DNA of 64,000 bases from an uncultured Bacteroidales bacterium. Its GTDB lineage: Bacteria > Bacteroidota > Bacteroidia > Bacteroidales > FEN-979. The translations under genes and the position numbers were made by a program. Positions 39,029-59,883 of this stretch are shown one piece after another (positions within the stretch are counted from its first letter, which is position 1; the number at the start of each line of letters is the position of its first letter). Under the pieces are notes generated by a model, which saw only the letters and a list, made by a program, of their open reading frames with translations, had not been told where the DNA came from and did no database searches. The stretch is from the NCBI GenBank assembly GCA_903875045.1, contig CAIQUS010000035.1, forward strand, positions 62,001 to 126,000. The letters are read 5' to 3'.

Positions 39029-42000
39029 TCAGGCGTTTTCCTGGTTTTCGGACACCAGATATTTTTTGATGACCGCATAGAGATCATCCTTTCGAAAGGG
39101 TTTTGACAAATAATCATCCATACCGGCCTCAATACATTTTTCTCGGTCGCCGGGCATTGCGATGGCCGTTAAGGCGATGATGGGAATCCTTTTTCCCGGT
39201 TCTTCCATTTTCCGGATATCTGAAGTTGCCTGTAAACCATCTCTTTCGGGCATGTGAACATCCATGAAAATAAGATCAATCCTGTTATTCTTAAATTGTA
39301 CAATTGCTTCGTCACCATTGTTGGCGGTAATCACACGGACACCTGTTTTCGACAACATGACACTCAATAATTTCATATTGATGCTATTGTCTTCGGCAAT
39401 TAAAATAGTCTTACCTGACTCAATTTTTATAATTTCCTCCATGGCTAAAGATAATTGACGTGGTTGTTCGTGGGCTAGGGGTTTTTGGTTATGCAGCAGA
39501 TCAAAAAAATCTTTCATCTTGACAGGTTTTGTAAGATACTGTTGGATGTCAAGATTATTAGACCTGTCAACTACGTTATTTCTTTCAATGGATGAGTACA
39601 TGAAAATAACCGGTTTTTGGTGCAGGCTCTGGTTATCACGAATTTTTTCAGCCACGGCAATTCCATCCATCTCAGGCATGCACATATCTACGATCACCAG
39701 ATCAAAAACCAATTTTGCTTCATTGGCGTTTTGTAAAACTCCGAGTGCCTCCTTCCCGCTGGTGCATATCGTAGAATCAATACCCCAGTAGGTCAGCATG
39801 TCTTTCATAATTTTGAGATTGGTGAGGTTGTCATCCACGACCAAAACCCGCTTGATTTTCGGTTTGGGGGAATTATCGCCCAATTGCGGTTCTGAAGCTA
39901 TTTGCAGAGGCAGTTCGAAACTGAAGGTACTGCCAACCCCGAGCTCACTTTCAACAATCAGTACCCCGTTCATAATTTCGGTCAGCATTTTCGAAATAGA
40001 CAAGCCCAATCCGGTACCGCCATATTTCCTGGTTGTTGAATTATCAGCCTGCGTGAATTGATTGAAAATATTTTGCTGTGCACTTTCCTCAATTCCGATT
40101 CCGGTATCCTTCACACTGAACAAAATCCTGACCTCCCCATCATTATCAGAATTTCCGGGTTGTTTTTTTGCTGAGATGTATATTTCGCCTTTTTCGGTGA
40201 ATTTTATGGCGTTACTGATAAAATTAACCAGGATTTGTCGAATTCGGAGAGGATCACCGTAATAAAAATCGGGTAGCCCTGGTTCGATTTCACACAACAA
40301 TTCCAGATTTTTTTCAAAAGCCTTCACTGTGAGGATGTCAACACTTTTCTCCAGAACATCATGAATGTTGAACCTTACGTGCTCGATTTCCAGTTTCCCG
40401 GCTTCAATTTTGGAAAAATCGAGAATATCGTTGATGGTATCGAGCAGCAGGTATGCTGATGTTTGGATTGTTTCCAGGTAATCCCGCTGGCTGCCTGTAA
40501 GTTGGGTTGTCAGGGCAAGTTCAGTCATTCCGATCACGCCATTCATCGGAGTCCGGATTTCGTGACTCATGGTGGCAAGGAACTCTGATTTTGCTTTACT
40601 GGCCCGTTCGGCTTCCTCCTTTGCCTTTTGCAAGGCAATTTCAATCTGTTTTCTTTCGGTGATATCTATTAGAATTGCAATGACGGCAGGTTCATTGTCA
40701 AAAATGATATTGTCACTCCGGATGATGGTATCTTTGATTTCCCCTCTTTTAGTGATGGCTTTTATCTCATAATCTCTAACCTGATCAATACCGGCCATTC
40801 TTCTTTGCATGTTTTCGATCACCGTGGGTTTCGACTCTTCTGCAATAAAATCCATAATATTGGTACCCAGGAGTTCCTCAAGGGTAGCGCCCATCACCGA
40901 AAGGGCAGCTTCATTGGCAAAAAGAACAATGCCCATGCGATGAATGATGATGAGATCGGGTAGTTTATGAACCAGGGTTGAATAACGCTGATTACTGTCA
41001 AACAATGCTTTCTCAACTTTTTTCCGTTCTGTGATGTCTTCAAAACTTTCGATCCCGCCGATGATATTTCCCATTGGATCCCTGAGGGTGTCAACATTTT
41101 TTGACACGAGAATGATTTGCCCTGATTTATTTCGCATGGTGCATTCACGTCCGTGAATCGGCTTCACTACGTTTTTGTTAAAAAGGCCGCAATTTGCATC
41201 GCAGGGTGTTTCGGCAAACTTATGACAGGTATTACCGATCATCTCCTGTTTTGAATAACCGGTAATTTCCTCGGCCTGTTTATTCCAACTGGTAATCCTC
41301 TGTTCACAATCAACGGTAAACAATGCGCTTGGGATAACCTTGTATATAAGTTCGGCAAATTCTTTGGCTTCAGTGAGGGCCTTTTCGGTTTCTTTTCGTG
41401 CGGTGATGTCCTCTTTGACAGCAATATAACTAATCATTTTGCCATCCTGGTTCTTGATCGGGGCGATGCTGGTGGATTCCCAGAACAAAGCACCATTTTT
41501 CTTTTTGTTGTAAATCTCCCCGTTCCACTCGTTGCCGGATGAAATGGTTTCCCACAGGTTTTGATAAAACGCATCTTTCTGAAAACCTGATTTTAATATG
41601 CTGGGATTTTGTCCAATGGCTTCAGATTGTGAATAGCCTGTCAGTTCAACAAACCGTTGGTTGACATATTCAATTCTGCCTTCCAGATCAGTAATCATGA
41701 TGGTGTTGGCACTTTGCTCAACAGCGGTGGATAACTTTTTAATCTGTTCATCAGCGGCATCTTTTTCGCCAATCTTTTTAATCAGGTCGGATTGCTGTGC
41801 ATTGAATTTCCGGATAAGCCTTGCAATACTCCCAAATTCATTTTGCTGCTCAAGAATATCTTTAACAGATCCGATGTTGCCGTTTGATAAGCATTTGGTT
41901 ATCTGTTTGAGAGGTATTGAAATCCAAAGGTTGATGCAATAAAAAAACACAAGACATATTACAATGAGAATGATTGAACCGGCAAAGGCGAAATATCCCA

Positions 42001-42730
42001 ATGTATTCAATTCGACGGCCATGTGGTTCGTCCGATGAAATTTCAATAAACCCGGTGCATGGTTTTTTGTTTTTCGGAGGTCATAATAAATCACTTCTAT
42101 TTCCGGTTGTGGCAGAACGGATTCCATTGAATCAGCCTCATGTATTTCGAGTTTAAAGCCGGTGGCTTTTCCGATTTCGGTACAGTAAACCGAATCCCAG
42201 GTTTTGGCAGCAACCAGATAACCGTTTGCTTTGGTTTGATGGGCAATATCAAAAGTAGGGACAATGGTTGCGCCAAAAATTTCATAAAGCCGTCCATCCT
42301 GGAAAATAAAACTGCTCCATGAACTGTTGTTTGAGAAAAGTTCTTTCAGTTGTTGCGGAGATAATGAAAAATTAAGGGTGGCTGAGTCATTGACAGCAGA
42401 AGCAAGTGTTCCGTCCAGGTCATAAATTCCCAGAAAGCTCATGTTAAAGGTAGTAAGGATCGGACTGAGATTGTTTTTAGCCCAACTCTCGTTTTTGGTT
42501 TTGGAGAATGCAACCATTTCGTCCCAGGCAGAATTATCTTTCACCGGCTTTAAAAATCCTTCCATCTTGAATTCAAGAACAGTCTGGATGATTTGCAGAT
42601 CGCTACTTTGCTTGGATTCACCATATAATTTTTGCTCTTGGGCCCTGATATAAAAATATCCGAGTGCAAACAGGACCAGAAACCCCGACAGGCTGACAAA
42701 AAGCAAGGTTATTTTAGTATTGGTTTTCAT
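39029..42730 (-). CDS. Hybrid sensor histidine kinase: CHASE4-like sensor, three PAS, HisKA, HATPase, two receivers
   Basis: A 1233-aa inner-membrane signalling protein. A first helix (about residues 8-28) and a second (about 245-265) bracket a periplasmic CHASE4-like sensor (WDEMVAFSKTKN, FLGIYDLDGTL). In the cytoplasm come three PAS segments (about 330-445, 455-570, 580-700), a HisKA dimerisation domain with phospho-accepting His723 in MSHEIRTPMNG, and an ATPase domain (NFISNAIKFTEKG, VKDTGIGI, YGGTGLGLSI). Two receivers follow with Asp in LVIVDMCMPEMDG and LIFMDVHMPERDG. The kinase has no HPt domain of its own. The divergent neighbour is a free HPt protein, the natural phosphorelay partner. 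One base separates its stop from rlmD. Confidence 0.95.
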   Translation of the reverse strand: MKTNTKITLLFVSLSGFLVLFALGYFYIRAQEQKLYGESKQSSDLQIIQTVLEFKMEGFLKPVKDNSAWDEMVAFSKTKNESWAKNNLSPILTTFNMSFLGIYDLDGTLASAVNDSATLNFSLSPQQLKELFSNNSSWSSFIFQDGRLYEIFGATIVPTFDIAHQTKANGYLVAAKTWDSVYCTEIGKATGFKLEIHEADSMESVLPQPEIEVIYYDLRKTKNHAPGLLKFHRTNHMAVELNTLGYFAFAGSIILIVICLVFFYCINLWISIPLKQITKCLSNGNIGSVKDILEQQNEFGSIARLIRKFNAQQSDLIKKIGEKDAADEQIKKLSTAVEQSANTIMITDLEGRIEYVNQRFVELTGYSQSEAIGQNPSILKSGFQKDAFYQNLWETISSGNEWNGEIYNKKKNGALFWESTSIAPIKNQDGKMISYIAVKEDITARKETEKALTEAKEFAELIYKVIPSALFTVDCEQRITSWNKQAEEITGYSKQEMIGNTCHKFAETPCDANCGLFNKNVVKPIHGRECTMRNKSGQIILVSKNVDTLRDPMGNIIGGIESFEDITERKKVEKALFDSNQRYSTLVHKLPDLIIIHRMGIVLFANEAALSVMGATLEELLGTNIMDFIAEESKPTVIENMQRRMAGIDQVRDYEIKAITKRGEIKDTIIRSDNIIFDNEPAVIAILIDITERKQIEIALQKAKEEAERASKAKSEFLATMSHEIRTPMNGVIGMTELALTTQLTGSQRDYLETIQTSAYLLLDTINDILDFSKIEAGKLEIEHVRFNIHDVLEKSVDILTVKAFEKNLELLCEIEPGLPDFYYGDPLRIRQILVNFISNAIKFTEKGEIYISAKKQPGNSDNDGEVRILFSVKDTGIGIEESAQQNIFNQFTQADNSTTRKYGGTGLGLSISKMLTEIMNGVLIVESELGVGSTFSFELPLQIASEPQLGDNSPKPKIKRVLVVDDNLTNLKIMKDMLTYWGIDSTICTSGKEALGVLQNANEAKLVFDLVIVDMCMPEMDGIAVAEKIRDNQSLHQKPVIFMYSSIERNNVVDRSNNLDIQQYLTKPVKMKDFFDLLHNQKPLAHEQPRQLSLAMEEIIKIESGKTILIAEDNSINMKLLSVMLSKTGVRVITANNGDEAIVQFKNNRIDLIFMDVHMPERDGLQATSDIRKMEEPGKRIPIIALTAIAMPGDREKCIEAGMDDYLSKPFRKDDLYAVIKKYLVSENQENA

Positions 42731-42925: not shown

Positions 42926-43468
42926 ATGATTGACATAGAGAAGTTTAATAATATTTATCAGGATTTTGACAACGAAACGACTATTTTAATCATTGATATG
43001 TTCGCGGAACAGCAACCTGAAATAATCCGGGATATTGCCCAAAATATCGAGGATTATGACATCGTTCAGGTAAAGTCGAATTCACACAAGTTGAAAGGAA
43101 CCTGCGGACAGCTTTTCGATCCTGAATCTCATTTACATGCAAAGGTTATGGAGGATGCTGCTCTAGAGAAAATCATCGAAATCGTCGAAGTTTTATTAAA
43201 GGAGCATCCGGATACACTAAAGGGGCTCAAAGAGAAATTTGATGGTACGACTGCCCTCTATCTTGAAATTGTCAAAAAATCCACAATAAAAAATTTCCTT
43301 ACAGAAATTCTGGGTTCGTTTTCTGCAGAGCAGGCTTTGGAACTTGAACGACTGGAGAAGGATTTCATGGTCGAAGTGATCGCTCCGATGTTCTTAAATC
43401 TGGAAACATCTTCAGCAGCACTTCTGTCGGAGCTATTATCAATAAAAAAGGAACTTCTTAAAAATTAA
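42926..43468 (+). CDS. Free histidine phosphotransfer (HPt) domain protein
   Basis: A 180-aa, all-helical cytoplasmic protein without membrane segments. Residues about 15-105 fit the HPt four-helix bundle. The phosphorylatable residue is His54 in SHKLKGTCGQL, which matches the HxLKGS-type HPt signature. The remaining 75 residues form further helices with no motif I know. In a phosphorelay it would take phosphate from the receiver of a hybrid kinase and pass it to a final receiver. Its stop TAA is followed at once by the ATG of the GH130-receiver gene, so the two proteins should be made together in similar amounts. It is divergent from the 1233-aa hybrid kinase. Confidence 0.85.
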   Translation: MIDIEKFNNIYQDFDNETTILIIDMFAEQQPEIIRDIAQNIEDYDIVQVKSNSHKLKGTCGQLFDPESHLHAKVMEDAALEKIIEIVEVLLKEHPDTLKGLKEKFDGTTALYLEIVKKSTIKNFLTEILGSFSAEQALELERLEKDFMVEVIAPMFLNLETSSAALLSELLSIKKELLKN

Positions 43469-45337
43469 ATGCAGATGGCCATAACCGTAAATCGCAAACC
43501 TGTACATTTTGATCCGGATCCAAGGAGAGTAATTGCCCGTTTTTTTCTTCCGGGGGGCCCTGAGCGGGGTAAAAAAATCATCGCCCGGATTATGGGGCTC
43601 AATGAGGAGGATGCCCTTCAAACATTAAATCAAACGCTGAGGGATTTTTCTGACAGGCATCGCAACATCACCAGGATCTTTATGAAGCATTTTGGCCATG
43701 TTCATCACCTGGTCAAAGCTGCCGGCTTTGATCCCGATACTTTATCACGGGAGCTGAAACTGCTCATCGGGTCATATTTCACCCATGAATATTCCATTGA
43801 GTCGGCTGCATTTTTCAACCCGTCGATGGTAGAAGATCCCGACCAGGCAAACTTGCAGGAAGGGCAAACAAGAGTCATTGTCAGTTTCAGGGCCACCGGT
43901 GAAGGACATATTTCTTCTTTGGTTTTTCGGGGCGGTATTATTGACAAACACAACCACCTTGAATTCAAGCCTGCAGGAAAACTGGTCGATGAAGCTGAAA
44001 CAATTCAGGATCATATTTATACAAAGGACTCTTTTATAAAGAAACTGGAAGAGATGAAGTTACATGATCATGATGTAGTTGATCAGATCATGGGGAAGTT
44101 GGGCGACCAGTTTTTATTCAGGGAATTGCAATATGTGGTGGAGGATTTTATTCAAAAAACAGAAATCAACTTTTCAATTGAAAAAGTTATTCAGGCATTA
44201 ACGTGGTTGGCAAACTCACATTATGAGATTACATTTTCGCTGGATACCGCTATTTCAGAACGTGTTATTTTTCCAATTGCCGATACAGAGAGCAACGGCA
44301 TTGAGGATGCCCGGTTCGTGCGGTTTACAGAGGAAAATGGCAGTGTTAAATATTACGCGACCTACACAGCCTATAACGGTGTGGCCATTCTTCCCAAATT
44401 AATTGAAACGACTGATTTTTACCATTTCAGGGTGAGGCCGATCTTTGGAAAAAATGCAAAAAATAAGGGAATGGCTTTGTTTCCCCGCAAGGTAAATGGC
44501 AGATATGCCATGCTTTCGCGACAGGATGGTGAAAATAATTTTATCATGTTTTCCGATGTCATCAACCTGTGGGATGAACCGGCTCAGCTATTTCAGGAAC
44601 CACGCTTCCCATGGGAATTTGTGCAATTGGGAAATTCCGGGTCTCCCATTGAAACTGATCGCGGATGGTTGCTCATTACGCATGGTGTTGGTGCCATGAG
44701 AAGGTATTGTCTGGGCGCGGTAATGCTTGATCTGAATGATCCAACGCGTGTCATCGGGCAATTTTCAGAACCAATTCTGATGGCCAACGATAAAGAACGT
44801 GAAGGATATGTTCCCAATGTCGTATACTCATGCGGATCCATTATACATCACAATGAACTGATTATTCCTTATGCGATGTCGGATTACAGCTCCGGGTTTG
44901 CATCCATTCCCCTTGATGAACTCTTTGAGAAAATGTTCCCGGGTGAACCCAGGAAATCAAAGGTGATCAAAAAGGACAGTGCGATAAGGATCTTACTTGT
45001 TGATGATGATCCCATCGAACAAAAGGTACTAACCACCATTCTCGAAAAAGAGGGCTATGAAATCGTAGTAGCCTCAGATGGCCTTCATGCTTTGGTTCAA
45101 CTTGGTAAATACCATATTGATTTGGTATTATCTGATATTGAAATGCCGAATCTCACCGGATACCAGTTGCTTGAATTTCTGAAGTCGAAAAATGTAGACA
45201 TTCCTGTCGTATTTCTTACAGGACATACAAGCCCCGAAGAAGAACTCAAAGGGTTAAAAATGGGGGCCATTGAATATTTGAAAAAACCTGTCCAACCTGA
45301 TTTGTTAAAAATCAAACTGAAACATCTGTTACACTGA
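43469..45337 (+). CDS. GH130-family glycoside phosphorylase/hydrolase fused to a C-terminal receiver domain
   Basis: A 622-aa cytoplasmic fusion in one uninterrupted frame. Residues 1 to about 500 are a full-length GH130-type protein: a helical N-terminal part (FFLPGGPERGKKIIARI, IGSYFTHEYSIESAAFFNP, VSFRATGEGHISSLVFR), then the five-bladed propeller with GIEDARF, where Asp280 is at the place of the family's catalytic acid, GMALFPRKVNGRYAMLSRQD, GNSGSPIETDRGWLLITHGV and VIGQFSEPIL. GH130 enzymes phosphorolyse or hydrolyse beta-mannosides. Residues about 508-620 are a complete receiver: LLVDDDP, Asp556 in LVLSDIEMPNLTG, VVFLTGHT and EYLKKPV. It is coupled to the HPt gene and lies among sensor kinases, so catalysis may be controlled by phosphorylation. 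The stop is 1 bp from the next convergent gene's stop. Confidence 0.88.
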   Translation: MQMAITVNRKPVHFDPDPRRVIARFFLPGGPERGKKIIARIMGLNEEDALQTLNQTLRDFSDRHRNITRIFMKHFGHVHHLVKAAGFDPDTLSRELKLLIGSYFTHEYSIESAAFFNPSMVEDPDQANLQEGQTRVIVSFRATGEGHISSLVFRGGIIDKHNHLEFKPAGKLVDEAETIQDHIYTKDSFIKKLEEMKLHDHDVVDQIMGKLGDQFLFRELQYVVEDFIQKTEINFSIEKVIQALTWLANSHYEITFSLDTAISERVIFPIADTESNGIEDARFVRFTEENGSVKYYATYTAYNGVAILPKLIETTDFYHFRVRPIFGKNAKNKGMALFPRKVNGRYAMLSRQDGENNFIMFSDVINLWDEPAQLFQEPRFPWEFVQLGNSGSPIETDRGWLLITHGVGAMRRYCLGAVMLDLNDPTRVIGQFSEPILMANDKEREGYVPNVVYSCGSIIHHNELIIPYAMSDYSSGFASIPLDELFEKMFPGEPRKSKVIKKDSAIRILLVDDDPIEQKVLTTILEKEGYEIVVASDGLHALVQLGKYHIDLVLSDIEMPNLTGYQLLEFLKSKNVDIPVVFLTGHTSPEEELKGLKMGAIEYLKKPVQPDLLKIKLKHLLH

Positions 45338-45338
45338 G

Positions 45339-47855
45339 TTATTTTGGTAAGCTGAAATAGAAGGTGGCTCCCTGGTCAATGTCACCTTCTGCCCGGCAAG
45401 TGCCGCCATGTCGCGAAATAATACGGTTTACATTGGCCAGTCCAATTCCAACTCCTTCAAAATCACGTGTTTTATGCAACCGTTGAAATACACCGAATAA
45501 TTTGTCGGCATATTTCATGTTAAAGCCTGCACCGTTATCTTTAACAAAAAATGTCGTTTCAGTGCCAGTGGATAAAGCGCCGATCTCAATGACCGCCAAT
45601 TCCTTTTTGCTTGTGTATTTAATGGCATTTGATATCAGGTTTATCCAGACCTGCCGGATTAGTTCGGCATCTCCTCTGACAGGAGGTAGTGTTTCCACAT
45701 TGAATTTGATTTTCCTGTTGGCTATTTCTGATCCGAAAAATTCAATGATCTGTTGAACCATGTCATAAGATTTGATCGTAGTTTTTCGCAATTCGAAACT
45801 TTTTAATCTGGAAAAAGAGAGAATGGCATCAATCAGTTTCTCCATTTCAAGGGCAGAATAGGAAATAAGCGTGAGATATTCCTTATCCTCTTTGGTGAAA
45901 TGTGATGTTTTTCCTTCGAGGAACAGATTAATGAAACCTTTGATGCGTCGTAACGGGGCAAGCAGATCATGTGAAATTGAATAGGAAAATGTTTCAAGTT
46001 CTTTGTTTACCTCTTCAAGTTCGGCAGTACGCTGTCTGACACGCATATCCAACTCTTTATTTAATTGAAGAATTTCATTTTCAAACTGTTTTCGTTTGGT
46101 AACATCTTCATGCATCATTACAAACCTTTCCGGTTTCCCATTGCTCTCCTGCAAAGGGAAAATGGTTGCTTTTATCCAAACCGGGCTGTCCGGAAAATCC
46201 GGAAATATATCATGAACATTGTAGGGAATATCAGGCAAATGAACCACTTTGCCACTTTTAACAAGGGAGATCATTTTTTCAAACCCTTTCATTTTTGTTT
46301 TCAGGTCATCAAAAATAGAAAAACCGGGAGGGGGCACGGCATTGAAAAGCAAAGTGTGGGCAGGATTCACCTTAATGGTTAAACCATCTGCATCAAGAAT
46401 TTGAATCGAAATTGGATTTTGCTCAATAATATTCTGTAACATGTTCTCTGCCTGCTTACGCTTATTATTGAGTAATGCCTGCGCTACCAAGGATGCAATG
46501 GTACTTGCGAACGATTCCTCATCGGCAAACCATGTTCTTTTTTCGCCGGTATGCTCGAAACATACAACCCCCATCAATTTACCATCCATATAAATGCCGG
46601 CATCAAGCATGGAGGTAATGCCAAGCGGAATGAGATACTGTTCAGTAAACTCGCAGGTTCTCGGATCATTTTGTGCATCATTGGCATTCACCCTGCTCTC
46701 TTTTTGAATGGCTTCAAAATAACGGGGGAAGTCAGTACAATTCAGTAATGACCCGGGAATGTGATTTTTCGTTTTCAGATCGAAAAGTGAATTACAGTGC
46801 AATGATTTCTGGTCATCGGAAAATAACCAGATTCCTGCACGTTCAACCACCATGGCCACCGCTATTTCTTCTGTAAGGCGGTGAAATGATTTGGCCAGGT
46901 CACCTTGTGAAATAACCTCATCCACCGCCAGCCTGGAAATTGAATTACGTTGCATACTGGCACGCTCCCGGCTTTTCATCATTTCCGACTCAACCTGCTT
47001 CCGGTCGGTGATATCATTGATGAAAGACAATATCCGGTCGTTTTCGGATAGCTGATACAGAACGCTGACTTCGACATCGAAAATGCTCCCATCTTTCCTG
47101 CGGTGTTTTGACTCGAAACGGTCTTTACCTGTGGCAACGACTTTATGAATGTGGGCTTTTGTGGTTTCGAATGTTTCGGTGGCATACAGGTCAGTGATGG
47201 ACATACTCAGTAACTCTCCTGTTGTATAGCCAGTCATCCTGCAATAGGTCTCATTCACTTCAATCAATCGTCCTTTCAAATCAGTTAGCATAAAACCGTC
47301 CATAGCGGTGTGTAATATGGAGCCTTGCCTGATCTGGCTTTCTGATAGTTTCTGCTCTGTTTGTTTGCGCTCTTCTATTTCCTGTTCGAGCTTTTTATTG
47401 GCAAGAAGAAGTTCAGTAGTTCTGGCCTGAACAATTTGTTCAATGCTTATTTTTTCATTCCGCAACTGATCTTCCGAGTGTTTGATTCTCAGCATGACCT
47501 TTAATTGGGCCATTAATTCTGCGGGATCAATGGGTTTGACAACAAAAGCATCCGCCCCTGTTTCAAGTGCTTTAATGCGGCTTTCCGTATCAGTTATACT
47601 AGCCGAGATCATAATTACCGGGATATGTTTGGTTAGTACGTCCGATTTTAATCGCCGGCAAACTTCAAAACCATCCATTTCAGGCATGATAATGTCAATG
47701 AAAATGGTTGCCGGCTGTTGCTCCCTGGCCATTTTAATTCCTTCAGAACCTGTTGTTGAAGTAATTACCTGAAATTCGGATAAATACGAATGAATGATTG
47801 CCTTGATGGTGATCAGGTTATCAGCTTGGTCGTCAATGGCTAAGATGGTTTTCAT
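45339..47855 (-). CDS. Soluble sensor histidine kinase: receiver, PAS, GAF, PAS, HisKA, HATPase
   Basis: An 838-aa protein with no membrane helix. The order is an N-terminal receiver (phosphorylatable Asp54 in IFIDIIMPEMDG), a coiled coil, a PAS domain (about 180-290), a GAF domain (about 305-475, with ERAGIWLFSDD and GVVCFEHTG), a second PAS-like domain, then a phytochrome-type kinase core with His629 in SYSISHDLLAPLRRI and ATPase motifs NLISNAIKYTSK, FVKDNGAGF and GVGIGLANV. The N-terminal receiver means its activity can be set by another kinase; the upstream 1375-aa hybrid kinase, 54 bp away on the same strand, is the obvious candidate. No ligand is identifiable for the GAF domain. Confidence 0.93.
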   Translation of the reverse strand: MKTILAIDDQADNLITIKAIIHSYLSEFQVITSTTGSEGIKMAREQQPATIFIDIIMPEMDGFEVCRRLKSDVLTKHIPVIMISASITDTESRIKALETGADAFVVKPIDPAELMAQLKVMLRIKHSEDQLRNEKISIEQIVQARTTELLLANKKLEQEIEERKQTEQKLSESQIRQGSILHTAMDGFMLTDLKGRLIEVNETYCRMTGYTTGELLSMSITDLYATETFETTKAHIHKVVATGKDRFESKHRRKDGSIFDVEVSVLYQLSENDRILSFINDITDRKQVESEMMKSRERASMQRNSISRLAVDEVISQGDLAKSFHRLTEEIAVAMVVERAGIWLFSDDQKSLHCNSLFDLKTKNHIPGSLLNCTDFPRYFEAIQKESRVNANDAQNDPRTCEFTEQYLIPLGITSMLDAGIYMDGKLMGVVCFEHTGEKRTWFADEESFASTIASLVAQALLNNKRKQAENMLQNIIEQNPISIQILDADGLTIKVNPAHTLLFNAVPPPGFSIFDDLKTKMKGFEKMISLVKSGKVVHLPDIPYNVHDIFPDFPDSPVWIKATIFPLQESNGKPERFVMMHEDVTKRKQFENEILQLNKELDMRVRQRTAELEEVNKELETFSYSISHDLLAPLRRIKGFINLFLEGKTSHFTKEDKEYLTLISYSALEMEKLIDAILSFSRLKSFELRKTTIKSYDMVQQIIEFFGSEIANRKIKFNVETLPPVRGDAELIRQVWINLISNAIKYTSKKELAVIEIGALSTGTETTFFVKDNGAGFNMKYADKLFGVFQRLHKTRDFEGVGIGLANVNRIISRHGGTCRAEGDIDQGATFYFSLPK

Positions 47856-47909: not shown

Positions 47910-50900
47910 TCAAGATTGATGTTTTTGAAGCAGATGTTCAATTTTTAATAACAATTCATCCCGGTCAACGGGTTTTGCGACATATTCATCACAGCCCGCT
48001 GCCAGAATTTCTTCACGGTCGTTTTTCATAGCCCTGGCAGTTAAAGCAATTACCGGAATCCGTTTTGTTTTTTCATCTTTTTTTAACAACGCAACTACTT
48101 CGAAACCATTCATTTTTGGCAGGGAAATATCAAGCAAAACCAGGTCGGGCAGTTCCGAAAATATTTTTTGCAATCCATCTTCGCCATCAGTGGCTTCGAC
48201 AAGTAGATAGGATTCCCCTATAATAGCCCGCAGGGTCAATCGGTTATCTGCATTATCCTCAATAACGAGAATTTTAAACCGGTCGGTCAAAGGGGATGTT
48301 CTTTTCAATGGATCATAAGATACATCCTGGTAAACTGCGATTTTTTCAATAGCAATATCCGGTAAAGGATTCAGGTGCAACATACTCCTGACTTTGTCAA
48401 GCAATTCATGCGGGTTGATATCCCCCTTCTGGATAAGTTGCTGAATGTTGTTTGATGAGAGCCGCGACAAATCATTTTTAGTCAGATTCTTGGCCGTCAG
48501 GACAATCACAGGGATTTTTCGTGTTTCCTCCGTACCCCTGATTGTTTCGAGCACCTCAAATCCATCAATGCCGGGCATCATCAAATCGAGAATAACCCCA
48601 TCGGGTATCGTATGTTTCATGTATTCAAGGGCATGGTTTCCATCAGTGGCCACATCAACGGTGATTGGTTCCCGCTCGAGAATTTTTTTTATCTGGATCA
48701 CAGCAATGCGGTTATCCTCAACGATCAGGATCCGCTTAACCGACACAGGACCATCCGGTTTCCTGTTTGCAGTTGGATTCATTTTTATCTGATCGAGGAT
48801 CCGCTTTATTTCCGCAAAAATCCGGGCCGGAACATCCGTATTTTTTTTCAATACCGTGGCTACTTTTCCTGTAAGCTGTGCTTTGTCGTATGGTGTCAGG
48901 TCTTTTGCTGTGACCACAATCACAGGCAGATCCCGTGTTTCCGGTCTTTTTCTGATCTCATCCAAAACCTGGAAGCCATTCATTCCGGGCATCATCAGAT
49001 CGAGTACAAGTATATCAGGTTGATTGAGACTGAGCATCTCCAGACACTTCATGCCACTTTCAGCTTCAATGTTATGAAGGTTTTCCTGCTGAAGGATTTG
49101 CTTAATCTGATTGCGATCGACCGGATTGTCGTCAACAATCATAATGGTGGCAGGATTCGGATTCAGCTTTCTGACTTCCCGGATAAGCGCTTGCCGGTCA
49201 ACAGGTTTGGAGATATATCCCACAGCGCCAAGCGCAAAACTGGTTTGTTGGTCATCGGAAACGGAAATGATGATAACAGGAATATCAGAAGTTTCAGGAT
49301 TGTTTTTGATTTTTTGCAAAACCTCAAAACCATCCATTTCAGGCATCACAATGTCGAGGGTAATGGCAAAAGGTTTATATTTTACTGCCAGTTCAAGGGC
49401 TTCCTGCCCAGAGGTGGTACCCAGTGTGTGATATCCGCCATCATGAAGGCTTTGTGAAATTTCCCGTACCGTTTCTGGGTCGTCGTCAACAACCAGAATT
49501 GTTTTTATTGATTGGTCAGTTGTCAGATTTTGATTGATCGCAAAGGCTTCACTTTCCAATCGTCCTTCCCATTTAACGGGCAGTGAAACGGTAAATACCG
49601 AGCCCTCCCCCAAGGTGCTTTCCACGCTGATTTTTCCATGAAGGGCTTTAACAAGTTTTTTCGCAATGGCAAGGCCCAGCCCTGTTCCTTCGTAAGCACG
49701 CGAGGTAGATCCGTCAGCTTGTCTGAATTCATCAAAAATATAAGGGATTGCCTCCCTGGAAATACCAATTCCGGAATCTTTCACATGAAAATGAACCACT
49801 GTTTTTTCAGGAATTACTGATATTTCAACACCGCCCTTGTTGGTGAATTTCACAGCATTGCCGATAATATTGGACATGATCTGATACAAACGTGTTTCAT
49901 CGGTGTCAATTTTTATATCTTCATCAGCCATTGTAAAGGCAAGTGTAATGTTTTTCTGCCGGGCCAATGGTTGGATATTGTCTGTAATCTGACGAAGGAA
50001 ATCCTTTAATGATAAGGGTTTTGGCTGAAGTTCCATTTTTCCGGCTTCGATTTTGGAAAGGTCCAGGATATCGTTGATCAGCGACAATAGTCGTTTCCCA
50101 TTGCGTTCAATCACTTCCATGTATTCATTTTCTTCCGGCGACAGTTTGTGCTTCGCCTGTCTGATCAGAACATGTGACAATGCATTGATGGAATTAAGCG
50201 GTGTGCGCAATTCATGGCTCATATTTGAAAGAAATTCACTTTTCAGCCGTGTGGCCTCTTCAACCTGAATCCGTTGCATTTCAAGTTCCTGGTTCTGCAG
50301 TTGCAACACATCAGAACCTTTTTGAAGTTCATTGGCCTGATGTTGTAACTCTTCTGCCTGTTCCCGTAATTCTTCTGTCTGAGCTTCTAATTTTTGGTTC
50401 GAAAATAAAAGGTTATCTGCAAGAAATGCGGTGCGCTCATTGGCAAGGAGGTTACCGTAGGATGTATTTAAAACATTCCATGATTGATTGATAGATTCAA
50501 TCGCTTCATCGGTGAAACTGTCTATTTTTGCGAGTGAAACAATTGCAATGACAGTGTCTTTGTTGTTTTTCACCGGAATTGTAACAACTTCACTGGGGAT
50601 AATTTCTCCGATACTGGTTTTGTACATGAATTTCGTATTGCCCGGGATGTTTTTTAAATGTTGGATTTTCTGCATCGCAAGCGCATTACTGATTTCGCCT
50701 TCGGGGTTTTTTGCCATAAAGGGTTGCATCAGGTTTTTGTGGACTCCAATCGAATCGAAGTGTTCATACTCAGTTCCCGACTCATTCAGCGTATAAAAAA
50801 CAGCCATGTTGGCATTGGTTACAGTTAACATTTTCCTGAGGAAGGTTTCAACATATTGCCTTCGTGTTGTATGTCCGATTACTGCTTCAGAGATGATGGC

Positions 50901-52037
50901 ACTGCCTTTTTGAACGATGGCTTTCGATTCAATACTATTGACCATTGTATTGATGGCCTTGCCAAGCTGTCCCAATTCATTGTGTGACCGGACTGAATTC
51001 CGGATGGAATAATTTCCATCGGCAATATTTTGACTATCGGTAACCAAGTCAACAATGGGCGACGAAATTGATTTACTTACAAAATACACGATAAACATGA
51101 TGACCAGTCCCGAAACCACAAACAATAATACAAGCAACTGGCCCATTGCATTTGTCGGGCCGCTCAGCTCCGACCAGTCTTGCTTGCAAACAAAACCCCA
51201 ACCCGTTTCATGGATGAAAGTATAAGCCACCAACACTTTTTCACCACGATAGTCTTCGGTGATCGAGATACCTGTTTTTCCCTGTACGGCGTTCATGGCT
51301 GCTTCTGTATTTAAACGGAACTCCAGAGGCGCATTCTGGTACCAGCGTAAATCACTGATTGCGAATAGGTTTTTATTGACAATCAGTGTTTCTCCGGTTT
51401 TACCCAACCCGGTCCGGTTTAGTAGCAGATTGTAAAGTGAACTTTTTAAATCGACTCTTGCCACAATAATTCCTTTAATTTCACTGTCCTTCTGTGAGGA
51501 TATATGCAATGGTATAGAAAATGTCATCGAATTCTCCCCAACAGTGGGTGAGTAATAAATATCCTTTATGAATATTTTGTTGGTTATTAAAGGCTCGTGA
51601 AAGTAACTGTCTCCTGTCTTATCCTGCCCTTCATATATTGGATTTGTTGAAATTTCAACGATACCTGTTTTCGCGTTTATGATAAAAATCTCACTATATA
51701 CCGAATGGCTTTTCTGATAATTTTCCAGAATCGCTCTGATGTTTTTCTTTTTCTGGTTACCAGGATCGTTTTTGTCATTCAACCATGTGCTAAAGGTCAA
51801 TAATTCACTATCTCTCGACATTGTATTCATATCCCAAACACGTTCTGCAATCCATGTTTCCAGTTGCATTACTTTAAGGTCGCGGATTGCCGATAGCTTT
51901 TCAAAAGTAGTTTCTCTGAATTCTTTGGAACTTTGTGTGTAGGTTATTACCATTCCGATCAATAGTGGTGATAGCGCCAGAAAAAGGAACCAGAAAGTGA
52001 GGTTTGAGCGAATGCTCGCAAATGCAATTTTTTTCAT
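47910..52037 (-). CDS. Giant hybrid histidine kinase: Cache sensor, HAMP, GAF, HisKA, HATPase, four receivers
   Basis: A 1375-aa membrane protein. Two helices (about 12-32 and 290-312) enclose a double-Cache-like periplasmic sensor (SEIFIINAKTGIVEIST, ILVNKNLFAISDLRWY pattern). HAMP (about 312-365), a GAF-like domain (about 375-540) and a long glutamine/glutamate-rich coiled coil follow. The kinase core has His608 in SNMSHELRTPLNS and complete ATPase boxes. Four receivers are in tandem at about 844-960, 964-1080, 1100-1215 and 1256-1372, each with an Asp in DIVMPEMDG, DLMMPGMNG, DLMMPGIDG or DISLPKMNG. No HPt or DNA-binding output is attached. Its ATG overlaps the TGA of cheR (ATGA). Confidence 0.93.
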   Translation of the reverse strand: MKKIAFASIRSNLTFWFLFLALSPLLIGMVITYTQSSKEFRETTFEKLSAIRDLKVMQLETWIAERVWDMNTMSRDSELLTFSTWLNDKNDPGNQKKKNIRAILENYQKSHSVYSEIFIINAKTGIVEISTNPIYEGQDKTGDSYFHEPLITNKIFIKDIYYSPTVGENSMTFSIPLHISSQKDSEIKGIIVARVDLKSSLYNLLLNRTGLGKTGETLIVNKNLFAISDLRWYQNAPLEFRLNTEAAMNAVQGKTGISITEDYRGEKVLVAYTFIHETGWGFVCKQDWSELSGPTNAMGQLLVLLFVVSGLVIMFIVYFVSKSISSPIVDLVTDSQNIADGNYSIRNSVRSHNELGQLGKAINTMVNSIESKAIVQKGSAIISEAVIGHTTRRQYVETFLRKMLTVTNANMAVFYTLNESGTEYEHFDSIGVHKNLMQPFMAKNPEGEISNALAMQKIQHLKNIPGNTKFMYKTSIGEIIPSEVVTIPVKNNKDTVIAIVSLAKIDSFTDEAIESINQSWNVLNTSYGNLLANERTAFLADNLLFSNQKLEAQTEELREQAEELQHQANELQKGSDVLQLQNQELEMQRIQVEEATRLKSEFLSNMSHELRTPLNSINALSHVLIRQAKHKLSPEENEYMEVIERNGKRLLSLINDILDLSKIEAGKMELQPKPLSLKDFLRQITDNIQPLARQKNITLAFTMADEDIKIDTDETRLYQIMSNIIGNAVKFTNKGGVEISVIPEKTVVHFHVKDSGIGISREAIPYIFDEFRQADGSTSRAYEGTGLGLAIAKKLVKALHGKISVESTLGEGSVFTVSLPVKWEGRLESEAFAINQNLTTDQSIKTILVVDDDPETVREISQSLHDGGYHTLGTTSGQEALELAVKYKPFAITLDIVMPEMDGFEVLQKIKNNPETSDIPVIIISVSDDQQTSFALGAVGYISKPVDRQALIREVRKLNPNPATIMIVDDNPVDRNQIKQILQQENLHNIEAESGMKCLEMLSLNQPDILVLDLMMPGMNGFQVLDEIRKRPETRDLPVIVVTAKDLTPYDKAQLTGKVATVLKKNTDVPARIFAEIKRILDQIKMNPTANRKPDGPVSVKRILIVEDNRIAVIQIKKILEREPITVDVATDGNHALEYMKHTIPDGVILDLMMPGIDGFEVLETIRGTEETRKIPVIVLTAKNLTKNDLSRLSSNNIQQLIQKGDINPHELLDKVRSMLHLNPLPDIAIEKIAVYQDVSYDPLKRTSPLTDRFKILVIEDNADNRLTLRAIIGESYLLVEATDGEDGLQKIFSELPDLVLLDISLPKMNGFEVVALLKKDEKTKRIPVIALTARAMKNDREEILAAGCDEYVAKPVDRDELLLKIEHLLQKHQS

Positions 52038-52888
52038 ATCGAAAGATCAAATTCTGAAGTTGTTTTTCTATAAATCTTACAATGTCTGGTTAATGGACTG
52101 AACTTCTCTTTGTATAGCAAAACAGGAACTTCGCTTTCACCAAGCATTAACACGCCTTTTGCTGCAAGTGATTTGTGTAGTTTGCTAAGAATAAATTCCT
52201 GAAACTCCTGATTGAAATATATTAACACATTTCGGCACAATATCAGGTCGAAATTACCAAAAATACTTTCACTTGGAGCATAACTACGTTTATCGAGTAA
52301 ATCGTACACTGAAAACTTAACCATCGATTTGAGCTCAGGTGTGACAGCGAAGCTGCCTTTCATTTCAACAAAGTATTTTTTTATAAGCCCGAGTTTTATT
52401 TCTTTCAGGCTCTCTGCCGTGTAGATTCCGGAATTGGCAAGATGTATGGCCCCCGGATCATAGTCGGTGGCAAACAAATCGACATGGAGGTTTATTTTTG
52501 CATGTTCAAGGTATTCGTTTATGAGGATTGCCACAGAATATGCCTCCTCACCGCGCGAGCAACCTGCGGACCAGATTCTTATTGAATCATTACCCAGTTT
52601 TATTTTTGACGAAATCAGATCCGGGATAATTAATTTTGAAAGCATCTCAAAACACAAGGGGTCCCTGAAAAAGTGGGTAACATTGATCATGAAATATTCT
52701 ACCAGACGGGTCGCTTCATCTGCGTCAGAAATCAATAATCTGTAATAGTTCTTGATGTTTTTTGACTCCGTGTTAATAATTCTGTTGTTTATCCGCCTTT
52801 CAAGCATTTCAACATGGTATGCACGATATTTGAAACCTTTTGCTTCATGCAGAAATTCAAGGATATCGGTGATATTATTTCCCATCAT
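52034..52888 (-). CDS. cheR: CheR-type protein-glutamate methyltransferase
   Basis: A 284-aa SAM-dependent methyltransferase of the CheR family, which methylates glutamates on chemoreceptors or, in non-motility systems, on other signalling proteins. It has the N-terminal helical domain (YHVEMLERRINNRI, FMINVTHFFRDP) and the SAM domain (IRIWSAGCSRGEEAYS, LFATDYDPGAI, FDLILCRNVLIYF). ATG 52888 (ATGATG) is chosen because it starts just before the helical domain; an upstream GTG at 52966 adds 26 residues without family support. The TGA overlaps the ATG of the giant hybrid kinase by the ATGA arrangement. No cheA, cheB, cheW or chemoreceptor gene is present. Confidence 0.92.
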   Translation of the reverse strand: MMGNNITDILEFLHEAKGFKYRAYHVEMLERRINNRIINTESKNIKNYYRLLISDADEATRLVEYFMINVTHFFRDPLCFEMLSKLIIPDLISSKIKLGNDSIRIWSAGCSRGEEAYSVAILINEYLEHAKINLHVDLFATDYDPGAIHLANSGIYTAESLKEIKLGLIKKYFVEMKGSFAVTPELKSMVKFSVYDLLDKRSYAPSESIFGNFDLILCRNVLIYFNQEFQEFILSKLHKSLAAKGVLMLGESEVPVLLYKEKFSPLTRHCKIYRKTTSEFDLSI

Positions 52889-53056
52889 TGTAAAGAGGAT
52901 AACCAAATAACCTGACGAAGTTAATCCGAATTCTTTAAAATCATAAAATTTGCGAAAAAAAACCACTTTAAGTGTAGGAAATCATCATTTTGACCTGATG
53001 ATTTTTACAACAATAAAGTGGTATTGACGTTTTTATAGAAGTCAAAAAAAACAGCT

Positions 53057-55894: not shown

Positions 55895-58285
55895 TTATTC
55901 TTTACGATCAATTCTTTCAAACATTTTTCCGCCATTTCCGGTCGGATGGCAATTATAACAAGCGGAGCTCACATAAGAGTATCCGACAACACCCTGATGT
56001 TCATTATTCATGGACGATTGCGGATGGCATGAGGTTGTACAGGTGAACACCGCATAATTGGAAGAATTTGGGTGGCAATCAGAACATGAATTCCATTTGT
56101 TTTTATGCTTCCCGGAATATATCGGGAAGTATTGACCATCGTGGTTCCAGTTAGCGGGCGACCATGCCGTTTGAGTATGGCAGTCGGTACATGTTGTGGG
56201 AAATTGGGCTGCCGCATGGGGTGGATTGTTCGTTTGATTGTAATTGGCCTGATGGCAGCCAACACAGGTATTCGGGGTTGAGTTATAGTTGCCGTTATGA
56301 CAATCAGCGCAATTATTTGTTATAGCAATATGTGCTCCGGCTATCACATAATAATTGTTGTGGATCGGGAAGGTTGCGGGTGCCCAGTTGGGGTTTGTTG
56401 TATGACAGGTGGCACAGGTGGTCGGAATGTTGATGGCAGCATGATTGGGATTGACAGAAGCATTAAAATTGGGCATGTGGCAACCGGCACAGGTATTGGG
56501 TGTGTTTACATAATTTCCCTGATGACATGCAAAACAATTGTTGGCAATGGTTGCGTGTGCACCAGTGAGCGGGTATACGGTGGTATGGTTAAAGGTTGAC
56601 GGCGACCATGCAACATTCGAATGACACGTTTGACAGGTTGTCGGGAAGTTTGCCGTGACATGATTTGGATTGGTTGTGGCATTATAATTCGGCATGTGAC
56701 AACCGTTGCATGTATTAGGTGTGTTTACATAGCTTCCCTTATGGCAGGCAACACAATTGGTTGCAATGGCAGCATGGGCTCCTGTGAGTGGATAAACGTT
56801 GTCATGGTTAAAGTTTGAAGGAGACCAGGCTACTTGCGAATGACAAGTTTCGCATGTAGTCGGGAAATTGGCCGTGATATGGTTCGGATTGGTTGATTGA
56901 TTGTATTTAACTGAGTGACATCCAAAACAGGTATTTGGTGAATTGGTGTAATTTCCCTGGTGGCAGGTTGCGCAATCATTTGCTATTGGTATATGCGCAC
57001 CGGCAATCACGTAATAATTATCATGGATAGGGAAAGTGGCTGGTTTCCAGGTTGCCTGCGTTGTGTGACAGGTGCCGCAATCTGTTGGAATATTGCCAGT
57101 AACATGGTTTGGATTAATAGATTGCGTGTAATTTTGTGTATGGCAGTTATAACAAACGGTTGTTGTTCCTGCATAACCTTGTGCATGACATTTTATGCAA
57201 TCGGTTTCCATGTGCGCCCCTGTTAAAGGAAATTGCGAGTTATTGTGGTTAAACGACCCTTCTTTACTGCCAGTCGGGTGACATGCAAAACATGCAGGAC
57301 TGTTATATTCATAGCCCTGAACTTCTCCATGTTCGTCGTTCATTTTCGTTTGGTCGTGTTCGTGGCAATCGATGCAGGTGAACAGTGAATAACTTGCCGG
57401 ATTGGTATGGCAATCGGTGCATTTGCTCCATTCCCCATTATGTTTTCCCGAATAAATAGGAAATCTGGCATCATGGTTTCCGTATTTTGCCGGTTTCCAT
57501 CCCGGGTCGGTGGTATGACAATCTTTACAGTTTGTTGAAATGCCACTAGTAGCGTGGTTGGGATTTGTCGTGGCATTGTAGTTTGACAAGTGACAGGAAA
57601 TACACTCGGGGGAGGTTTCAGAATAGTTGGATGTTTTGTGACAATCCCCGCAATTGCTGATGTCGTGCCCGCCGGTGAGCGGAAAGAAATTGTGATTGAT
57701 TCCGGCACCTGCCCAAGCATTGGCAGTCATGTTGTGGCATTCAATACAATTTGTTGAATAGCCACCGGCAGCATGATTCGGCCTGGTTGTCGCAGCGTAA
57801 TCTTTTTGATGACAATCAATGCAATTGACACCCAGTGGTCCAAAATTGAGACTTGAGGCGGATGCATTTGTATGGCAGGCGAAACAATCGGCAGCAACAT
57901 GTTTTCCGACAAGGGGGAAGCGGCTTCGCTGATGAATCTCTGTAATATTGTTAACGACCCAGGTGTTAGGCGTGTGACATCTTGCACAGTCATCTCCCAC
58001 AGTTTGGTTATGCATATCGGTGTGACATGAAACACATTCTTTTCCGACTTTGCCAAATTCCAGGGAGGTGTGGCACAATTTGCAATTAACGGCCTGATGC
58101 TGCCCGACCAAAGGGAATTTAGTGGTGCTATGGTTGAATGACAAAGCCTTTATGTCAATTTTCCACCCGGTGGTGTTATGGCAATCCATGCAGTTTACCT
58201 TAAAATCATCTCCGTGGGGTGATGATTGTGAAAACAGACTTACTGAAAATACCAGCGACAGAATTAATGATGACAGTTTTCGCAT
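55895..58285 (-). CDS. Multihaem c-type cytochrome, 30 CxxCH plus one CxxxCH
   Basis: A 796-aa exported cytochrome. The signal peptide spans about residues 1-19 (ending SLFSQ). I count 30 CxxCH haem-binding motifs and one CTTSCH (CxxxCH) near the C-terminus, 31 possible haems in all, or about one per 25 residues. The central region consists of 73-residue modules with three haems each, recognised by TNPNH-T-NFPTTC and YPLTGAH-IA-NC landmarks; free His residues between motifs can act as distal ligands. The density suggests a long electron wire in the periplasm or at the surface. It overlaps the 20-haem gene by 22 bp at its start and is 10 bp from the barrel gene at its end. Confidence 0.93.
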   Translation of the reverse strand: MRKLSSLILSLVFSVSLFSQSSPHGDDFKVNCMDCHNTTGWKIDIKALSFNHSTTKFPLVGQHQAVNCKLCHTSLEFGKVGKECVSCHTDMHNQTVGDDCARCHTPNTWVVNNITEIHQRSRFPLVGKHVAADCFACHTNASASSLNFGPLGVNCIDCHQKDYAATTRPNHAAGGYSTNCIECHNMTANAWAGAGINHNFFPLTGGHDISNCGDCHKTSNYSETSPECISCHLSNYNATTNPNHATSGISTNCKDCHTTDPGWKPAKYGNHDARFPIYSGKHNGEWSKCTDCHTNPASYSLFTCIDCHEHDQTKMNDEHGEVQGYEYNSPACFACHPTGSKEGSFNHNNSQFPLTGAHMETDCIKCHAQGYAGTTTVCYNCHTQNYTQSINPNHVTGNIPTDCGTCHTTQATWKPATFPIHDNYYVIAGAHIPIANDCATCHQGNYTNSPNTCFGCHSVKYNQSTNPNHITANFPTTCETCHSQVAWSPSNFNHDNVYPLTGAHAAIATNCVACHKGSYVNTPNTCNGCHMPNYNATTNPNHVTANFPTTCQTCHSNVAWSPSTFNHTTVYPLTGAHATIANNCFACHQGNYVNTPNTCAGCHMPNFNASVNPNHAAINIPTTCATCHTTNPNWAPATFPIHNNYYVIAGAHIAITNNCADCHNGNYNSTPNTCVGCHQANYNQTNNPPHAAAQFPTTCTDCHTQTAWSPANWNHDGQYFPIYSGKHKNKWNSCSDCHPNSSNYAVFTCTTSCHPQSSMNNEHQGVVGYSYVSSACYNCHPTGNGGKMFERIDRKE
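56440..57120 (-). repeat. 219-bp tandem repeats encoding three-haem modules
   Basis: Within the large cytochrome gene, matching landmarks recur every 219 bp (for example GGCATGTG-CAACCG near 56472 and 56691, and a diverged copy near 56913). This equals 73 residues and three CxxCH motifs per unit. The neighbouring copies are still clearly similar as DNA, so duplication is relatively recent or homogenised by recombination. Confidence 0.75.
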
Positions 58286-59883
58286 TTGAATTCTTTTATT
58301 TTATAATTGACAAAAGAAATTTCTTTATCCTTTTTGATCTTGTGGCATTTGATGCATGCAACATTTTTGTGTTTTCCATCCAACGGGAAGAGTGTTTTAT
58401 TATGGTCAAATTTTGGTGCAGGTTTGAAAGCAACGACATCATGGCATCTATTGCAATCGGTTGTTCCGTTGATTTCAAATTGTCTGGCATGCTTATCTTC
58501 ATGGCAATTTTCGCAATCGGTGGGCAACCCGCTGAATTTTTGATGAGCATAACCTTCTTTTTCCTTGTTGAAATGGCAATCGCGGCATGTTTTTTTTGCA
58601 TGTGCCCCGGTAAGTTCGAAGTTTGTCTTTTTATGATCAAAAGTTATTGAACTCCACTTGCTTTCATTGTGGCAGTTTTCGCAACTTGAGTCAGGATAAA
58701 ATTTATCACTGATAAAAGTCTGATGAATGTTTTTATGGCAATCGATGCAACGTTTTCCGATGTCTTTGAAATGCCAGGTTGTATCAGTTTTGCTGGTCTC
58801 TTTTTTGTGGCAAGCGAAACATGGTGTGGCAAGATGGGCTCCCTTTAGCTGGAATACACCGGCATTATGTTGTTCAATCGTAAAAGAAAACTCATTGAAC
58901 CCATTTACGGTATGACATTTTGAACAATCGGGCGATACTCCCTGTTTTGCGAACTGGTTTTTATGATAATCGGTATGGCAATCACTACAATGCGCGTATT
59001 TAATTGCGTTGGTGAGTTTTGTTTTGTGACATTTTTTACAATCAACCCGCTGATGCTTCCCTTCCAGTTTAAAGTTAGTTTTGTTATGATCGAACCCCTG
59101 AACCCCTTTGATGATGACACTGAATGACTCCCCTGTGTGGCATTGCGTGCAATTCTGTCCGAATTTATTGTTGTGTATGTCTTTGTGGCACGGGGTGCAA
59201 TTATCGAACTTTAACCCTTTAAATTCCTGGAATTTTTTTGTCTCCTTTATTCCAGTTTTATGACATTCAATACATGCAACTTCTTTATGTTTTCCGGTTA
59301 ATTGAAATTTTGCTTTGGCATGATCGAATTTTTTCGCCGGTTTGAATTTTTCATAATCATGACAATCTGTGCAATTGGTTGAAAGTGTCTGCTGATGGTA
59401 GTCTTCATGGCAGGTCAAACATGCAGGGCTCAATCCAAGGTATGTGAACTTTTTCTTTTTAATTTTCGGATCGGTAATATGATCCGCTTTATGGCAGTCG
59501 ACACATTGTTTTTTGACATGTGCTCCCGTTAATGGAAATCCGGTTAAATTGTGATTAAATTTTTCTTTTACAAACCGAACAATTTGAAAGTTCAGTCCGT
59601 GATGGTCGCTGTGGCATGTAAAACACTCTTTGCCTTTGATTTCAGATGATGCGTGATATCCCTTTTTGAGATCAATACGCGCTTTCAATTCTGTATGGCA
59701 GTCCAGGCATTTCTGATTGGAAACATTTTTCCCAAGGATATGACATTTGGTGCAATTGGAAATTCCCTCAAGATGCGAATGAAATTTCGATAATTCTCCG
59801 GGGGAAATTTGAGAAAAAACGGGCGTAGCTGCAAAGCAGGCAAACAAAACTGAAAATGCAAACAATTTAATCTGATAATTCAT
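58264..59883 (-). CDS. Multihaem c-type cytochrome with 20 CxxCH motifs
   Basis: A 539-aa exported cytochrome. The signal peptide ends near residue 25 (TPVFSQ). I count 20 CxxCH motifs. The sequence is rich in Lys, Phe and His, with repeated units FDHNKT-F-L-GKH--V-C--CHK in which a His and two haem motifs alternate, as in cytochrome c3/NrfH-like and other multihaem families. No catalytic domain is attached. It lies between the Fe-S/FAD oxidoreductase (54 bp upstream) and the larger cytochrome (22-bp overlap) and probably forms the periplasmic stage of the electron path. Different composition from its neighbour (Lys-rich against Asn/Thr-rich) suggests the two are not recent duplicates. Confidence 0.94.
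   Translation of the reverse strand: MNYQIKLFAFSVLFACFAATPVFSQISPGELSKFHSHLEGISNCTKCHILGKNVSNQKCLDCHTELKARIDLKKGYHASSEIKGKECFTCHSDHHGLNFQIVRFVKEKFNHNLTGFPLTGAHVKKQCVDCHKADHITDPKIKKKKFTYLGLSPACLTCHEDYHQQTLSTNCTDCHDYEKFKPAKKFDHAKAKFQLTGKHKEVACIECHKTGIKETKKFQEFKGLKFDNCTPCHKDIHNNKFGQNCTQCHTGESFSVIIKGVQGFDHNKTNFKLEGKHQRVDCKKCHKTKLTNAIKYAHCSDCHTDYHKNQFAKQGVSPDCSKCHTVNGFNEFSFTIEQHNAGVFQLKGAHLATPCFACHKKETSKTDTTWHFKDIGKRCIDCHKNIHQTFISDKFYPDSSCENCHNESKWSSITFDHKKTNFELTGAHAKKTCRDCHFNKEKEGYAHQKFSGLPTDCENCHEDKHARQFEINGTTDCNRCHDVVAFKPAPKFDHNKTLFPLDGKHKNVACIKCHKIKKDKEISFVNYKIKEFKCENCHH

Follow-up and report, generated by a model that had tools for sequence, protein, structure and literature searches.

Two-component control of enzymes acting on sugar polymers is usually transcriptional or exerted through c-di-GMP, and His-Asp-His-Asp relays of the RcsC/RcsD/RcsB type consist of a hybrid kinase, a histidine phosphotransfer (HPt) protein and a final receiver. 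The protein described here would likewise follow a kinase and an HPt, although the output of its final receiver would be an enzyme and not a DNA-binding domain. The enzyme shares its propeller, the G-I/V-E-D motif, the lysine in the NK column, an arginine and a histidine with the GH130 enzymes of beta-1,2-mannosides (Teth514_1788, Teth514_1789, Lin0857 and Uhgb_MS), and differs from them by about 100 extra N-terminal residues, a helical insertion, Gln386 and the receiver. It belongs to the same subfamily as long unfused GH130 proteins (about 490 aa), which have the same active-site residues and glycosyltransferase (GT) partner and are about 39-60% identical to the window protein, but lack the receiver. 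Receivers fused to metabolic enzymes form a known class, which includes receiver-glycosyltransferases of the MTH_548 type, and such fusions have been described as narrowly distributed (excerpt of PMC5847659). Those named in the excerpt of PMC5847659 include none with a glycoside hydrolase or phosphorylase, whereas the GH130-receiver fusion occurs in several families. Our search of the open-licence literature turned up no glycoside hydrolase or phosphorylase reported to carry a receiver, in line with a preliminary description of this locus, whose author knew of no described case. What is new here is the output family, the wider distribution and the link to an HPt in two lineages, while response regulators with enzymatic output were already known. 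We propose, with a probability of about 0.7, that phosphate passes from a hybrid kinase through an HPt to the GH130-receiver protein, and that this relay directly gates mannoside-chain metabolism.

The DNA analysed was a stretch of 64,000 nucleotides, here called the window, with positions counted from its first letter. A single open frame of 622 codons on the plus strand encodes both domains, with the following parts:

43469..45337, plus strand: GH130-receiver fusion protein, 622 aa (open frame and Pfam; conserved start probably at 43475)
43475..43780, plus strand: residues 3-104, the N-terminal extension that marks the long GH130 subfamily; two strands, then mostly helix (alignment with fused and unfused relatives; secondary structure of the model)
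43781..44932, plus strand: residues 105-488, the propeller domain of the GH130 enzyme, interrupted by a helical insertion at about 183-250 (Pfam, alignments and model)
44306-44308, plus strand: catalytic Asp280 of the GH130 domain (GIEDARF)
44933..44986, plus strand: variable linker, residues 489-506 (low pLDDT, little conservation, weak constraint)
44987..45334, plus strand: receiver domain, residues 507-622, with Thr584 and Lys606 (Pfam, alignment and model)
45134-45136, plus strand: receiver phospho-acceptor Asp556

Alignment with relatives showed that the start they have in common is the second ATG (43475, MAITVNRK). The Pfam model PF04041 (Glyco_hydro_130) matched residues 262-487 of the fusion with 93.1 bits against a cut-off of 26, and PF00072 (Response_reg) matched residues 508-616 with 96.2 bits against 30.2. 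No Pfam model matched residues 3-261; these align with full-length relatives, both fused and unfused, and include the conserved N117 and R141 of the first blade, so that the enzyme part was taken as about residues 3-490. The frame and the domain scores bear out the preliminary description, which had read a GH130 protein of about residues 1-500 followed by a complete receiver and had located Asp280, Asp556 and the conserved threonine and lysine correctly. Inspection by eye of the N-terminus (MAITVNRKPVHFDPDPRR) revealed no export signal, which suggests that the protein is probably cytosolic and within reach of a relay.

Across the 101 distinct GH130 parts aligned, N117, R141, H147, E279, D280, R282, K333, R351, Q386, H405, R411, N450 and D472 were identical in all 101, and these include the catalytic Asp and the residues of the -1 subsite (N117, R141, D280 and D472). 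Judged by motif, N117, R141 and D472 would correspond to N74, R89 and D363 of BT3780, which are -1 subsite residues (excerpt of PMC4599007), and K333, R351 and H405 line up with conserved site residues of solved GH130 enzymes. Membership of the family was also seen in Foldseek matches to GH130 structures (best E 2e-21), the GH130 body being most similar to the 1,2-beta-oligomannan phosphorylase Teth514_1788 (TM 0.75 by target), while the scores against the NCBIfam GH130 equivalog models were far below their cut-offs (146 vs 550 and 141 vs 450 bits). The preliminary description had named a missing GH130 match or lost catalytic residues as grounds for abandoning its reading, and neither was found.

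GH130 phosphorylases hold phosphate with three basic residues, in place of which the beta-mannosidases of the family have a pair of glutamates (excerpt of PMC4599007). In the long subfamily two of the three basic residues, K333 and R351, were kept and the third position was Gln386 in 101 of 101 parts, in a column occupied by Lys or Arg in the alignment with Teth514_1788, Teth514_1789, Lin0857, Uhgb_MS, TM1225 and RaMP2. These columns were located from UhgbMP residue numbers that we take to be those of its phosphate ligands, and the spacing fits the alignments. Set against the glutamate pair of the hydrolases (BT3780 being compared by description and not by alignment), K333 and R351 are basic and Q386 is neither basic nor acidic. 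As read from these columns, neither the phosphorylase nor the beta-mannosidase residue set is complete in the long subfamily, and a phosphorylase reaction, as opposed to that of a hydrolase or synthase, is uncertain because Gln386 replaces the third basic ligand throughout. The K333 column contained Lys in all 101 parts and in the beta-1,2 structures aligned, and Arg in TM1225 and RaMP2; K333 may be equivalent to Lys199 of BT3780, the lysine for beta-1,2-mannoside specificity. Since sequence and fold searches rank beta-1,2-mannoside enzymes first and K333 follows their pattern, this chemistry is our best guess for the fusion enzyme. The earlier assignment to phosphorylases or hydrolases of beta-mannosides thus stood at family level, with beta-1,2 enzymes as closest relatives, and became uncertain as to reaction type. 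The phosphate site altered throughout the subfamily, together with the hybrid kinases that crowd round the fusion gene, would suit a GH130 part acting as a sensor or sugar-binding module, with information flowing from the glycan to the kinase network; this seems to us highly improbable, given that the catalytic Asp and the inspected sugar-site residues were retained in 101 of 101 parts, receiver-less relatives included. The same retention of catalytic and sugar-site residues gave no support to a dead binding module.

The receiver was equally well preserved. D513, D556, Y603 and K606 were kept in 29 of 29 fused receivers, positions 512 and 514 were D or E and position 584 was T or S, so that the acidic pair, phospho-Asp, Thr/Ser and Lys of response regulators were found in every fused row and a degenerate receiver was ruled out. 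Foldseek placed the C-terminal tail among CheY-like receivers (RR468, TM 0.91-0.95). Codon comparisons of six pairs, with dS near saturation and some values infinite, gave dN/dS of 0.019-0.067 for the receiver (5/6 pairs computable), 0.037-0.059 for the GH130 part (4/6) and 0.53-1.07 for the linker (3/6). Receiver and enzyme are therefore both under strong purifying selection and the linker much less. The identities of the two halves also tracked each other (r = 0.86 over 406 pairs, with 0 of 5000 permutations as high). The linker was 16-20 residues long and little conserved in the 29 fused rows. An AlphaFold2 model of the fusion built from 59 sequences (pLDDT 91.9, pTM 0.75) had an ordered receiver and values below 50 at residues 497-502; it comes without an inter-domain error estimate, which puts domain placement and multimers beyond its scope. 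The preliminary description had suggested a structure prediction to look for packing of the receiver against the active site. The prediction lent such packing no support, the tether being of low confidence and fast-evolving, and the simplest reading of the model is a receiver that is tethered rather than rigidly docked.

The profile search for GH130 and receiver in one protein, also suggested there, yielded 29 distinct fused homologues in one clade. A scan of named genomes, which favours fused loci because its search words were drawn from fused sequences, returned 27 loci. In 24 of them, from Bacteroidales-type MAGs, Limnovirga, Chitinophaga, Maribacter, Flavivirga and others, a single frame carried the fusion, which rules out chance or an assembly artefact. 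The exceptions were L087, a broken locus whose second piece carries the receiver, and L066 and L084, which are without one. Fused homologues kept both domains down to about 50% identity. The full-length fusion was present in 6 of the 43 genomes of the window's family, the other five proteins being 58-91% identical. In the phylum sample, a long GH130 was found in 56 of 395 genomes (E up to 1e-60), 2 fused and 54 unfused. A first family sample, taken as Chitinophagaceae because the GH part of L034 is the same as that of the Limnovirga locus L067, had a long GH130 in 30 of 195 genomes (4 fused; contig ends truncate two of the 30), and a second, taken as Flavobacteriaceae because two loci share their GH part with L071 and L088, in 19 of 299 (3 fused). 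In these samples, fetched loci were classed as fused or unfused by HMM and the remaining ones by the length of the frame; G554 and G460 run into contig ends. The fusion is thus shared by several bacterial groups, namely Bacteroidales-type MAGs, Chitinophagaceae and Flavobacteriaceae. A plasmid search returned long unfused GH130 proteins annotated 'glycoside hydrolase family 130 protein'; among the 5000 matches retained, no record covered 80% of the query and there was no fusion. One relative, 55% identical over residues 1-492, was located on a viral-collection contig (L162, IMGVR_UViG_3300006183_000096).

In a quick maximum-likelihood tree of the 101 GH130 parts, which left out parts with less than 400 bits or 400 profile positions (truncated contigs, L087 and the short paralogue L001), 29 fused and two unfused rows formed one clade (SH-aLRT 99) and the fused/unfused label required three changes. 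Inside this clade, the unfused rows were L084, from a Spirochaetales MAG, and L066, from a MAG contig labelled Akkermansiaceae that is probably a misbinned Bacteroidota contig; L066 is 80% identical to the window's GH130 and its contig carries no receiver. One ancestral fusion and two losses fit this pattern, in a tree that cannot tell gain from loss. A neutral origin would have two functional domains joined by chance and the receiver doing unrelated work, for example as a phosphate sink for neighbouring kinases. It agrees with the minority state of the fusion in the samples (2/56, 4/30 and 3/19) and with the absence of a receiver in one close relative, the MAG contig L066. We give it hardly any credence, since there is one fused clade across orders whose halves co-vary and are strongly constrained, and since various lineages put different two-component genes beside the fusion.

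In the window, the fusion gene is surrounded by the following signalling genes:

39029..42730, minus strand: hybrid histidine kinase with CHASE4, three PAS, HisKA, HATPase and two receivers (Pfam, E up to 0.01)
42926..43468, plus strand: HPt protein, 180 aa, whose stop codon abuts the ATG of the fusion (Pfam Hpt)
45339..47855, minus strand: hybrid kinase with receiver, PAS, GAF, HisKA and HATPase, convergent with the fusion; alternative partner (Pfam)
47910..52037, minus strand: hybrid kinase with Cache, HAMP, HisKA, HATPase and four receivers; alternative partner (Pfam)
52034..52966, minus strand: CheR-type methyltransferase adjoining the kinase cluster (Pfam)

The window HPt scored 28.3 bits against the Pfam Hpt cut-off of 24.6 in a partial match (residues 22-63, profile positions 2-43 of 84), and His54 is, judged by the motif SHKLKG, its likely phospho-acceptor. 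None of the three hybrid kinases flanking the fusion had a Pfam HPt match; kinases with receivers of their own and without an HPt are what a four-step relay needs. The kinase divergent from the HPt gene is the candidate for the start of the relay, and a similar kinase N-terminus occurred at the equivalent place in L004/L064. A PDB sequence search with the fusion ranked the receiver of RcsC first among receivers. Of the six HPt matches in the window genome, only the one adjacent to the fusion occupies a short frame, of 188 codons, against 713-878 for the others. An HPt also adjoined the fusion in L065 and in two Chitinophaga loci. The HPt gene of Chitinophaga dinghuensis, like that of a related MAG, is convergent with the fusion gene, shares 23 bases with its end and is likewise the sole short-frame match among the 5 of the genome (G903 and G904). 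Kinase, HPt and terminal receiver were together in the window, with its three kinases, and in L086, with an HPt and a hybrid kinase. In L085/L154 the hybrid kinase was about 13 kb away from the fusion and its HPt, whereas L065 had the HPt and no kinase in the stretch examined, its HPt being one of three in short frames in that genome. In a third lineage, that of L089, a PAS-GAF histidine kinase lies 104 bases upstream of the fusion on the same strand.

Within 300 bases, a two-component gene was found at 7 of 26 fused and 4 of 69 unfused loci (Fisher 0.008, kinship ignored), a count that left out three loci of each kind because their flanks were short; the enrichment is modest, and 19 of the 26 fused loci had no such gene at this distance. 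The kinase and receiver profiles were made from few window or locus sequences and may miss other types, and the custom HPt profile, made from the four adjacent HPts, is biased towards them. A repeat with Pfam covered 9 further fused and 20 unfused genomes, and in none of them did an HPt adjoin the gene. HPt adjacency, seen in two lineages, was thus ruled out as a general rule. Even close to the window it varied: L064 (90% identical) kept the divergent kinase and showed no trace of an HPt between the two genes, and L063/G027 (89% identical) had no HPt nearby.

From the computed features, that is the fusion, the conservation of both active sites, selection, neighbours and co-occurrence, we infer a phosphate path, a starting kinase, an effect of phosphorylation and a glycan. 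The fusion would be a response regulator with an enzyme as output. Its functional receiver would be attached through a flexible linker to a GH130 beta-mannoside enzyme of the long form, most likely engaged in beta-1,2-mannoside metabolism. A hybrid histidine kinase would pass phosphate via its own receiver to His54 of the neighbouring HPt, and His54 would hand it on to Asp556. Phosphorylation of Asp556 would then alter the assembly, activity or partner contacts of the enzyme, and the altered enzyme would gate a glycan pathway common to the GH130-receiver protein and a GT4-type glycosyltransferase. Against this relay stand the two lineages on which the HPt link rests and the fused loci, most of the total, that have no adjacent two-component gene; the HPt of the window matches part of the profile and exceeds the cut-off by only 4 bits, and the unfused majority manages without a receiver. 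Two-component control of the enzyme, as put forward in the preliminary description, gained from anatomy and context (receiver intact in 29/29, HPt adjacent in two lineages, kinase in a third), which suggest it at the level of sequence. If the relay input is real, the cell may switch the enzyme itself and not its gene. With a conserved fusion that has an HPt beside it in two lineages, a single purified protein allows a direct test of whether a phosphorelay controls glycan metabolism post-translationally. We entertain more tentatively, at a little under even odds, a wider reading in which a glycoside-active enzyme as terminus of a His-Asp-His-Asp relay would let environmental signals switch the synthesis or recycling of mannoside chains without transcription, several glycan enzymes of the C. 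dinghuensis locus perhaps being served by one relay. Besides the fusion, that locus carries a flippase, GT4 and GH5 genes, a hybrid kinase and a receiver-GT2 glycosyltransferase of 437 aa (L154:6119-7432 = L085:11761-13074, minus strand; Response_reg 103 bits, Glycos_transf_2 83.7 bits); in the related MAG, the place of the last is taken by a 106-aa frame of the same cluster with no Pfam match.

The glycosyltransferase partner belongs to a single GT4-type cluster, with proteins mostly of about 750 residues, and was present in 18 of the 24 named fused loci. In the window's family, 5 of the 6 fused genomes had a high-scoring GT (>1,100 bits, a limit chosen after a gap from 1,168 to 655 bits had been seen) and none of the other 37 did; in the window genome it lies on another contig and is 82% identical to the GT of L064, and L063/G027 had no high-scoring GT. 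The phylum sample gave a GT in 47 of 56 genomes with GH130 against 27 of 339 without (kinship ignored). The two genes were less than 3 kb apart in 25 of the 28 genomes in which both were seen on one contig. The structures closest to the GT model were those of PimB' and PimA, each determined with GDP-mannose, and of MshA. The C-terminal half of the GT is helical and resembles Glyco_hydro_88 weakly (matches at E up to 1 in 7 of 10 members, the best at 5.6e-06). Because GT4 enzymes are retaining and GH130 enzymes inverting, the two probably act on different linkages of one mannose-containing glycan, and the fusion may give a handle on the glycan that this widespread GH130-GT4 gene pair makes or recycles. 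A GT that co-occurs so strongly and is often adjacent, together with a long, variable tether of low model confidence, could also mean that the receiver serves for phosphorylation-dependent docking or targeting of an enzyme of fixed activity to a partner (the GT4, a kinase array or the membrane), with catalysis unaltered. We think this unlikely, as the GT accompanies unfused enzymes too (among the 56 phylum genomes with GH130, 54 lack the fusion and 47 carry the GT), so that the receiver is unnecessary for the GH130-GT partnership as such.

Some further observations were made in the window and its genome. At window positions 55895-59883, beside an oxidoreductase-like frame, two proteins of 796 and 539 aa contain many CxxCH motifs and, by eye, appear to be multihaem cytochromes. 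The genome also has a second, short GH130 of 347 aa near a contig end (L001, G000:C129:15586-16527) and a paralogue of the GT near the start of another contig (L159, G000:C145:208-2385). A GT of the L159 type adjoins a weak GH130 match on contig C109 of G020, which suggests a second GH130-GT pair.
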